Below, in pieces: positions 24,398 through 27,851 of a DNA stretch of 64,000 nucleotides. A program made the position numbers and the translations under genes. The notes beneath the pieces were generated by a model. That model saw only the letters and a program-made list of their open reading frames with translations, was not told the origin of the DNA and did not search any database. Every line of letters begins with the position of its first letter. Positions within the stretch are counted from its first letter, which is position 1. The DNA is from Tabrizicola sp. (GTDB taxonomy: Bacteria; Pseudomonadota; Alphaproteobacteria; Rhodobacterales; Rhodobacteraceae), in the NCBI RefSeq assembly GCF_030694085.1, contig NZ_JAUXZE010000085.1:1-64000 (forward strand), written 5' to 3'.

Positions 24398-25129
24398 TCA
24401 GTCGTCGTTTCGGGCTGGCCGCCCCAAGAGGTCGACCAACCGCGACCGCGCTTCGGGCAACGGTCGGTCGTGCAGCACCGGCCGCAGTTCGCGGTCCAGG
24501 AAGAAGCCGGTCAGTCGCAGCCCCATAAGCACCGCTTCAAGAGCAAGTGGGCCGTCTCTGTCCAGCCCCTCGGGCAAGGGGATCAGGCGGTCGGCCCAGT
24601 CTCCCGCGCCTTTCGCTGTCACCGCCCGCCCGGTTTTCGGGCTGACATAGGCCAGCCCCTTTGTCGCCCCGGTGACCGCACAGGCCGACAGATCCAGCCC
24701 GAAGCCAAGCTCTTCCAGCAAGCACAGTTCCCACCGCACATAAGCCGCTGTCCAGCCGGTGTCCCCCAGCACATCCATCAGCGCCAGCGTCTTGCGCCAC
24801 AGCGCCGGATGCGGCTCGCGCTCGGGCAGCGCCTCATGAAGAAGCGCGCAAACCGACATGAGCCCCGCCAAGGCCAGCCGGTCCGCCAGAAGATGCGCGC
24901 GGGATTTCACCGGCTCGACCGTGAAGCTGCCGATGTGGTCGTCCAGCCGCGCCCGCCAGTCCAGCGTCAGACTGGTGCCAGGCTGCAATGCCGCTGCCAT
25001 CTTGCGCGAGGCCCCACCCCGCACCACACCCATGTGCCGCCCATGTGAACCCGTCAGGACCTCGACAATCGCCGAGGTCTCGCCATGCGGTCGCATGGAT
25101 AGAAGGATACCTTCGTCGCGCCATTCCAT
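24398..25129 (-). CDS. recO: DNA repair protein RecO
   Basis: RecO loads RecA on SSB-coated DNA in the RecFOR pathway. The 243-residue protein has the N-terminal OB fold (MEWRDEGILLSMRPHGETSA, VVRGGASRK) and the helical C-terminal domain (LLEELGFGLDLSACAVTGAT). The zinc-cysteine pattern of some RecO proteins is incomplete here. The ATG at 25129 is chosen over the longer start because it opens the conserved domain. It is the last gene of the rnc-era-DUF1491-recO block. Confidence 0.93.
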   Translation of the reverse strand: MEWRDEGILLSMRPHGETSAIVEVLTGSHGRHMGVVRGGASRKMAAALQPGTSLTLDWRARLDDHIGSFTVEPVKSRAHLLADRLALAGLMSVCALLHEALPEREPHPALWRKTLALMDVLGDTGWTAAYVRWELCLLEELGFGLDLSACAVTGATKGLAYVSPKTGRAVTAKGAGDWADRLIPLPEGLDRDGPLALEAVLMGLRLTGFFLDRELRPVLHDRPLPEARSRLVDLLGRPARNDD

Positions 25130-25181
25130 GCGCCGGACTATCGGGGGGTCAAGGGTTCGGCGCAACCCCGCCCCAGACGCC

Positions 25182-26504
25182 TCAATCCGCCAGGCCGTCT
25201 TCCTCCAGCAAGGTCCGCCCCTGCCGATCCTCCAGCTCGATCACCCAGAGGTCGGGGTCACGGCCCCTGGTGCGCGAGACAAGCGCATCCACCTCCGCCT
25301 CCGACCCCTCGGCCAGCAGGATCCAGGCCCGCGCCCCGGTCATCAGGTCCGACCGACGCTCGTAGGCCCGCGCGGTGCCGTCCAGGAGCGCCACCTTCAC
25401 CACCACCGCGCCCGCTTCCGCATCGCCCTTGGCTGTCACATAGGTCGGAATATCCGCCAGCCGCAGCCGGGTCAGATAAGCCGCGACCCAGATGCCCGAG
25501 GCAAGCCGAGGCGTCATCGCACCACGCCCGGGCCGGGACCAAATTCCTTCGAAGGAATTTGCCCGAACTCTTCGAAGAATTCGGGGCCGCGCCCACGCAT
25601 CGCCATCCTTGAAATCCAGACCCATCTCGGAATAGCGCTCGGCTTCTTCAAGCCAGTTCGGCCGCACCTTCACCTGCAGGAACAGGTGCACCGTCCGGCC
25701 CAGGAATTCCGAGATATCCGCCCGCGCCGCCTGACCGATGGCCTTGATCGTCTCGCCCCGGTTGCCCAGCACGATCCCCTTGTGGCCGTCCCGCGCGACA
25801 TAGACGATCTGGTCGATCCGGGTCGTCCCGTCGGGCTTGTCCTCCCACTTTTCGGTTTCCACGGTCAGCTGGTAGGGCAGTTCCTCGTGCAGCCGCAGGG
25901 TCAGCTTTTCGCGCGTCATCTCGGCCGCGATCATCCGCATCGGCAGGTCGGCAATCTGGTCCTCCGGGTAGAACCACGGGCCCTCGGGCACTTCGGCCGC
26001 CAGCCATTCGCGCAGGTCGGCGACGCCGTACCCTTTCTCGGCGCTGATCATGAAGGTCTTGGCGAAGGGAAATGCCTCATTCGCCTCTTCGGCCAGAGCC
26101 AGCAGCGTCTCGGCTTTCACCCGGTCCAGCTTGTTGATGGCAAGCGCCACCGACTTGCCCCTCGGCATCTCGTCGCGCAGCCGGTCGATGATCGCCTTGG
26201 CACCTTCGGTCAGCCCGCGCTGCGCCTCGATCAAGAGGACGATGATATCGGCGTCCGAAGCCCCGCCCCAGGCCGCCTTGACCATGCTTCGGTCCAGCCG
26301 CCGCCGGGGCCGGAAGATGCCGGGCGTGTCCACAAAGACGATCTGGCTTTGTCCCTCCATGCAGACCCCCCGGATGCGGGTCCGAGTCGTCTGCACCTTG
26401 TGCGTGACGATACTGACCTTCGCCCCCACCATCCGGTTCAGAAGCGTGGACTTGCCCGCGTTGGGCTCTCCGATCAGGGCGACGAAGCCCGCGCGCGTGG
26501 TCAT
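25182..26504 (-). CDS. era: GTPase Era fused in frame to a DUF1491 protein
   Basis: The 440-residue ORF combines two proteins. Residues 1 to about 304 are Era, which binds 16S rRNA during 30S maturation: P-loop ALIGEPNAGKSTLLNRM, G3 FVDTPGIF, G4 NKLD, and a KH domain with GNRGETIKAIGQAAR ending ERYSEMGLDFKDG. About 25 arginine-rich residues follow, encoded by a pair of AT-rich palindromes, then 111 residues (MTPRLASGIWVAAYL onward) that match DUF1491. These are normally separate adjacent genes. The internal ATG at 25517 lacks a clear ribosome site, so the product could be a true fusion, or DUF1491 could be made by coupled re-initiation. Confidence 0.9.
   Translation of the reverse strand: MTTRAGFVALIGEPNAGKSTLLNRMVGAKVSIVTHKVQTTRTRIRGVCMEGQSQIVFVDTPGIFRPRRRLDRSMVKAAWGGASDADIIVLLIEAQRGLTEGAKAIIDRLRDEMPRGKSVALAINKLDRVKAETLLALAEEANEAFPFAKTFMISAEKGYGVADLREWLAAEVPEGPWFYPEDQIADLPMRMIAAEMTREKLTLRLHEELPYQLTVETEKWEDKPDGTTRIDQIVYVARDGHKGIVLGNRGETIKAIGQAARADISEFLGRTVHLFLQVKVRPNWLEEAERYSEMGLDFKDGDAWARPRILRRVRANSFEGIWSRPGRGAMTPRLASGIWVAAYLTRLRLADIPTYVTAKGDAEAGAVVVKVALLDGTARAYERRSDLMTGARAWILLAEGSEAEVDALVSRTRGRDPDLWVIELEDRQGRTLLEEDGLAD
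25540..25585. repeat. Two tandem palindromes at the era/DUF1491 junction
   Basis: First palindrome 25540-25561: CAAATTCCTTC and GAAGGAATTTG, a perfect 22-bp dyad. Directly after it, 25562-25585: CCCGAACTCTTC and GAAGAATTCGGG with one mismatch. They resemble the paired AT-rich palindromes at 5835-5883 in layout and in the CAAATT/GAATT motifs, and lie inside the coding frame between Era and DUF1491. Confidence 0.85.
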
Positions 26505-26622: not shown

Positions 26623-27165
26623 ATGGGACTTTTACGTCGCCTCCTCCGGGCCTTCACCCGGTCCAGCCGACCGAAAGCGGTTTTTGTCCGGCGTCAGACC
26701 ACGATCGAGAGAGATTACCAGAACCGGCCCCCGCGCGTCGTTGTCCACCAACGGACCGAGATCCGGGTCGTTGAGGTCACAGAGCTTCGTGGTCGCGCCT
26801 GGGTCATCGATGGCGATACGCTCGACATCGCTGGAACGCGCGTCCGCCTTGCTGGCGTGGATGCCCCCGAGATCGACCACCCCTACGGCCAGAGCGCCAA
26901 GTGGACGCTGGTCAATCTGTGCAAGGGGCAAGAGGTGCGGGCCGTGTTCGACGGGGACTTGTCGCATGACCGGACTGTCGCGACCTGCTATCTGCCCGAC
27001 GGGCGCGATCTGTCTGCCGAGATGGTGAAGGCAGGACTGGCGATCGACTGGCCCAAGTTTTCACGCGGGAAGTATGCGACGATGGAGGTCCCCGGCATCC
27101 GCCGGAAGCTTTGGCGCTGCGACGCGCGGCAAAAGGGGCTGATGCCGCCAAGCCTGCCCGACTAG
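26623..27165 (+). CDS. Thermonuclease-family protein
   Basis: A 180-residue protein with a staphylococcal nuclease-like (SNase) domain in the C-terminal two thirds: [26 protein letters not shown] is the classic N-terminal SNase block with the metal aspartates, and [18 protein letters not shown] the C-terminal one. The basic N-terminus ([20 protein letters not shown]) is not an obvious signal peptide. Degradation of nucleic acids with calcium is likely but unproven. It overlaps the convergent rnc stop by 4 bases and is divergent from era. Confidence 0.86.
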
Positions 27166-27851
27166 GCTTCGCCCGTCTCCATCCGTTGCAAGAGCGTCCG
27201 CGCCGCCGCCTGTTCCGCCACCCGCTTCGACCCGGCTTCGGCTTCAGCTGTCGCGCCATTGGCCAGCGTCACCCGCACCGTAAACAAGGGGGCATGGTCG
27301 GGCCCGCTACGCCCGGCTTCCTCATAGCTGGGCGGTGCCATGCCACGCGCCTGCGCCCATTCCTGCAAACTGGTCTTTGCGTCCCGCGCGTCCGGTTCCA
27401 CCGCCGCGATCCGGTCGCGCCACAGCCGCAGGACCAGAGCCCGTGCCGCCTCAAACCCCGCGTCCTGGTAGACGGCGGCGATCACTGCCTCCATCGCGTC
27501 GCCCAGAAGCGCCTCTTTCCGCCGGCCTCCGGTCAGCATCTCGCTGCGACCCAGCTTCAGCACATCGCCCAGGCCCACCTCGCGCGCGACGTCGGCGCAG
27601 GTCTCCTTGCGGACCAGCGCGTTGAACCGCGGGGCCAGCTGGCCCTCGCGCGCGGCTTCGTCGGCGGAGAGCAGAGCCTCGGCCATCACCAGCCCAAGAA
27701 CCCGGTCGCCCAGGAATTCCAGCCGTTGGTTGTCCGGCCGCGTGGCGGTGCCGATCGAGGCATGCGTCACCGCGCGTACCAGCAGATCGGGCTTGCGAAA
27801 GGTGTGCCCGAGGCGGCCCTGGAAAGCCAGCAGGTCCGCCGCCAACCTCAC
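27162..27851 (-). CDS. rnc: Ribonuclease III
   Basis: Cleaves double-stranded RNA, including rRNA precursors. The 229 residues carry the catalytic signature [15 protein letters not shown], the second acidic site [17 protein letters not shown], and a C-terminal double-stranded RNA-binding domain ([20 protein letters not shown] ...). The start is a GTG at 27849-27851. It lies between lepB and era, the classic lepB-rnc-era order, with a 10-base gap to lepB. Confidence 0.97.

Follow-up and report, generated by a model that had tools for sequence, protein, structure and literature searches.

Many bacteria cannot live without the ribosome-assembly GTPase Era, which is hardly ever fused to another protein. 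DUF1491 proteins have solved structures and, to our knowledge, no known role. In Rickettsia, the Rickettsia palindromic elements (RPE) are described as insertions within genes, their palindromic repeat being read in frame in proteins. A review (PMC10582724) describes fusions of Era as extremely rare and as subject to steric constraints; in the available part it names YbeY-Era, the RNase III-Era of some Rickettsia and a few others, leaves open how they function, and does not include DUF1491 among the partners. We found no literature on DUF1491, or on repeats of the kind described below in Rhodobacteraceae.

Here we describe what appears, from its sequence and those of its relatives, to be a one-genome instance of a familiar event, the fusion of two genes through loss of a stop, here with a clean join provided by a stop-free repeat. 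As in the known natural fusions, Era and a second gene's product would form one polypeptide, and as in RNase III-Era the partner is a usual operon neighbour; here, in contrast, the partner is DUF1491, it lies C-terminal to the KH domain, and the fusion is found in one genome only, is evidently recent and has a repeat-derived linker. The repeat resembles REP and BIME sequences, being made of many short palindromes, usually paired, that closely follow stop codons or separate convergent genes and whose stems covary, but it differs from them in its TTCGAA centre with purine-tract and pyrimidine-tract arms and in the lack of a detected Y1_Tnp/RAYT gene. With RPE it shares the in-frame reading of a palindromic repeat inside proteins, but it normally sits outside the gene, being translated only where the stop codon follows it.

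The window, the whole stretch of 64,000 nucleotides that was analysed, is part of a Tabrizicola genome (Rhodobacteraceae), several of its closest matches being titled Tabrizicola. On its minus strand an open reading frame of 440 codons runs from ATG to TGA without an internal stop (25182..26504), comprising Era (residues 1-303), an arginine-rich linker (304-329) and DUF1491 (330-440). The era part (25596..26504, minus strand; 303 codons) encodes GTPase and KH domains (NF000908, TIGR00436, PF01926, PF07650) and ends in KDGDA, at the same codon as its orthologues. In profile searches it was assigned to Era by a full-length match to NF000908 (residues 3-295; 370 bits against a cut-off of 237) and by the KH_2 domain (62.8 bits). 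The DUF1491 part (25182..25517, minus strand; 111 codons) has kept its own ATG at 25517 and matches PF07372 with 106 bits over residues 334-434, covering positions 1-104 of the 104 in the model. Modelled alone, DUF1491 has an AlphaFold pLDDT of 90, and Foldseek matches it to PDB entry 4GOQ (E about 1e-8, TM about 0.8) and also to 2N6E and 2KNR. The genes of the region are arranged, all on the minus strand, as lepB-like (a label that we take from the sequence and the usual gene order), rnc for RNase III (27162..27851), era, DUF1491 and recO (24398..25165), with a plus-strand gene for an SNase-domain protein between rnc and era.

Between the two domains lie 78 nt of former intergenic spacer (25518..25595, minus strand), now read as the linker WARPRILRRVRANSFEGIWSRPGRGA, in which 8 of 26 residues are arginine; the spacer measures 75 nt in the relatives G020, G014, G016 and G026. 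It contains a near-perfect palindrome of 22 nt (CCGAATTCTTCGAAGAGTTCGG on the minus strand; 25563..25584), which starts 8 nt after the position of the era stop codon, and, after a gap of 1 nt, a perfect one of 22 nt (CAAATTCCTTCGAAGGAATTTG; 25540..25561), the inner 20 nt of which have 12 exact copies in the genome. The pair is more than chance would give: the junction RNA folds with z = -2.9, and the covariation of the stems and the recurrence of the pattern in the genome, both described below, point the same way. The original prediction, that Era normally ends near GLDFKDG (followed, as we find, by DA) and that here the frame runs on through two palindromes encoding an arginine-rich linker into DUF1491, thus agrees with the stop-free frame, the domain matches and the end of Era in relatives. 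A model of the fusion was built on a joint alignment in which the relatives' TGA was read as Trp. Its pLDDT is below 50 at residues 274-334 and its KH domain is poorly modelled; the sole feature we take from it is that the linker is predicted to be disordered.

We translated the 3' ends of era from the 29 congeners that yielded the junction and from the 80 best matches in a second collection. Wherever the motif was recovered, which includes dozens of Rhodobacteraceae besides these congeners, Era terminates as KDGDA-stop, or as KDGD-stop, KDGN-stop and the like. At the ancestral stop position (25593..25595, minus strand) the window has TGG (Trp304) where relatives have TGA or TAG: it reads GCG TGG against GCG TGA, and is alone with TGG among the junctions recovered. 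The palindrome pair is nevertheless present at the junction in at least 19 of the 29 congeners. One element-bearing relative (L007) reads TGA GGCGGCC AAAAGTC... and the window TGG GCGCGGCCC CGAATTC.... A differently centred pair of the TTCTGCGAA type occupies the site in three loci (L030, L031, L033), and a genome of another genus (G053) has the same kind of pair there, in an untranslated spacer that would read GGRILRRIRANSFEGIW. A further motif, GCCTCCGGCGGGAGTATTT, recurs 5' of DUF1491 in the spacers of many relatives and is absent from that of the window. Among the genus and family genomes with a matched junction, the window is the only one that aligns over it without a stop, and 16 further family genomes with long open frames gave no fusion among their readable junctions. 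The comparison of close relatives proposed in the original prediction therefore returns separate genes, many with the palindrome pair, around an intact stop.

With the element lying behind an intact stop in congeners and TGG found in the window only, the fusion is very probably a lineage-specific loss of the era stop, most simply by an A to G change, in front of an ancestral element. Such a loss yields a long frame because the spacer is already a multiple of three in most congeners (23/29, the other six being out of frame) and because copies of the element almost never contain a stop in any of the six frames. The simplest path would combine the A to G change with the gain or loss of 3 nt within the G+C-rich stretch, a path that is not unique and does not fix the order of the two events.

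We propose that era, ending in TGA, and DUF1491 were ancestrally separate genes in this genus. Between them would have lain a spacer, about 75-130 nt long, in which most congeners have a TTCGAA palindrome pair. Along the branch leading to this genome, TGG would then have replaced the era stop, and the in-frame, stop-free spacer would let ribosomes read the palindrome pair into DUF1491, giving a protein of 440 residues. The palindromes, a genus-wide 3'-end repeat, would on this account have supplied the linker and not caused the fusion. The fusion is probably made in cells; if the base is right, only unusual frameshifting would keep ribosomes from making it. Values of dN/dS against congeners (0.07-0.09 for Era, 0.08-0.16 for DUF1491) indicate purifying selection on both domains, and among the matches listed the fusion query found only weak GTPase hits elsewhere in its own genome. 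Both domains seem to be intact and present once each in the genome, and the product, whether fused or cleaved, is therefore presumably functional: Era may remain active either carrying a flexible tail or once the disordered linker has been cut, and part of the DUF1491 may continue to be initiated from its own ATG. There is as yet nothing to indicate a new function for the fusion.

The palindromes had been predicted to belong to a repetitive element, and this is borne out by the genome, where the pattern TTCGAA-N12-24-TTCGAA occurs 34 times against six for the reversed control. The same pattern numbers 3 to 47 per congener and is lower in most of the family, though occasionally high. The element statistics cover some 1.2 Mb of this genome plus 20 loci from a second one (G003), in which genes were called by a simple finder that we wrote on the basis of codon usage. 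About 30 copies are found in this genome, mostly directly after gene ends. Among 35 classified intergenic pairs, 20 are co-directional, 14 convergent and one divergent, compared with 424, 93 and 154 for intergenic regions 40 nt or longer; these pairs usually lie within about 30 nt 3' of a stop codon. The element thus has the many intergenic palindromic copies 3' of genes that characterise REP sequences, but we call it REP-like and not REP, since a search of the genome (about 96% complete) for a Y1_Tnp/RAYT transposase (PF01797) gave no match at E 0.001 while the controls were positive. Two other repeats were seen in passing. One is another type of tandem hairpin, whose loops are not palindromic, in G000 on contigs C11 (about 552085, and 253934), C80 (about 79735, and 230402) and C68 (about 132986); in some cases the loops of the two hairpins appear complementary (TGAG/CTCA, GAAG/CTTC). 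The other is GTAGGGTGGGCGATATCGCCCACCCTAC, a perfect palindrome of 28 nt that occurs repeatedly (G000 C11 at 182793 and 235746, C80 at 109115).

No stop is present in any of the six frames in 37 of 38 copies of the TTCGAA element, against 5.6% of palindrome-preserving shuffles, the copies being related and not 38 independent observations. The TA step is absent from all 38, which follow a pattern of purine tract and pyrimidine tract; the copies are stop-free because arms built in this way around a CG centre contain no TA. The element is also translated elsewhere. In a molybdopterin oxidoreductase of 951 aa from this genome (L142, 10193-13048, minus strand) the last codons are encoded by a TTCGAA pair, giving the tail QNSSKNFAKSFRKLL, which is open and kept in most genomes of the genus with a match; its variants include 3-nt longer palindromes and, in some, the TTCTGCGAA variant. 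In G003, PhnJ (L243, 2060-2983, minus strand) has a C-terminal tail from the same element that contains QKSSKTFANSFEGIW; the peptide ANSFEGIW is common to this tail and the Era linker. Translation of the element therefore has precedent in the genus. A wider reading, which we put forward tentatively, is that the TTCGAA pair acts as a stop-free bridge, so that wherever a stop is lost the pair becomes a tail or linker, giving new C-termini in the oxidoreductase and PhnJ and a fusion in Era; the purine tract, the pyrimidine tract, the CG centre and their mirror arrangement would exclude TA steps and nearly all stops in every frame.

An alternative, close to the second possibility of the original prediction, that the stems control separate synthesis of DUF1491, is that they serve in this operon as a terminator or RNA switch, so that DUF1491 is expressed on its own and the long frame is rarely completed. 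In its favour, the stem base pairs covary at the junction and copies of the element lie directly after gene ends, often between convergent genes. Across 18 distinct sequences of the genus, pairing is kept in 94.8% of stem cells, and double changes are seen at 14 of the 18 stem pairs, against a shuffled mean of 5.4 and at most 7 in slid controls. This covariation indicates maintained palindromicity and not a particular function, because variants of the element could be swapped as blocks. No site with the G+C-rich stem and U tract of an intrinsic terminator was found at 25540-25584, the junction matched no Rfam family, and a scan of it for promoter-like sequences found nothing. Since, moreover, the stems lie inside the translated frame in the window and the element lies in the oxidoreductase coding frame across most of the genus, we regard such a role as unlikely to explain the junction.

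It is also improbable, in our estimation, that the fusion is a consensus or assembly error and that the true genome has TGA and separate genes as in its relatives. The case for an error is that the fusion comes from a single genome, represented by one assembly (102 contigs, 95.7% complete), that Era fusions are described as extremely rare (PMC10582724, in the part available), and that the stop of nearby recO is altered as well, CGA at 24410-24412 replacing the TGA of relatives and adding four codons. In lengths of orthologues compared with G020, 36 of 41 differ by at most one residue, and only era (+137) and recO (+4) are longer here by three residues or more, giving two stop changes within 1.2 kb. 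Stop loss is uncommon but natural; two in one operon are slightly suspicious and might hint at a local consensus problem. Against an error, the other genes of the window are colinear and uninterrupted compared with four congeners and show neither frameshifts nor premature stops; errors are thus not widespread in the local assembly, and general sequencing damage was rejected as a cause. A priori, natural turnover of stops between species is far commoner than an erroneous substitution that happens to hit a stop codon, and the spacer also has a natural-looking 3-nt length change relative to relatives.

Conserved programmed readthrough of the era TGA into DUF1491, become constitutive in the window, would fit the in-frame spacer of 23 of the 29 congeners, usually behind TGA, but we consider it very improbable: the spacer is out of frame in six, some in-frame spacers have a second stop, some congeners end era in TAG, and alignment in one frame occurs in about 55 of 397 family genomes, no more than chance. 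The original prediction was right that the era stop has been lost in frame, but its proposed cause, insertion of the palindromes, is hardly credible even for an element that is repetitive (34 pairs) and sits at the era 3' end, since the window departs from relatives by TGA to TGG in the stop codon, which precedes the first palindrome by 8 nt, and since in at least 19 of the 29 congeners the element follows an intact TGA or TAG at that very codon; this refutes the insertion unless the window's element is an independent re-insertion.

Loss of the era stop before an ancestral element, the reading we prefer, would be revealed in protein by the peptide ANSFEGIWSRPGR, or any peptide across KDGDAWAR, which would be diagnostic of the fused form. 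If made, a C-terminal Era fusion would be a natural test of how far the Era C-terminus tolerates an addition on the nascent 30S subunit, and the joining of DUF1491 to Era may offer a hint about the role of DUF1491. More generally, a stop-free repeat at the 3' ends of genes may turn a simple stop loss into a clean extension or fusion.
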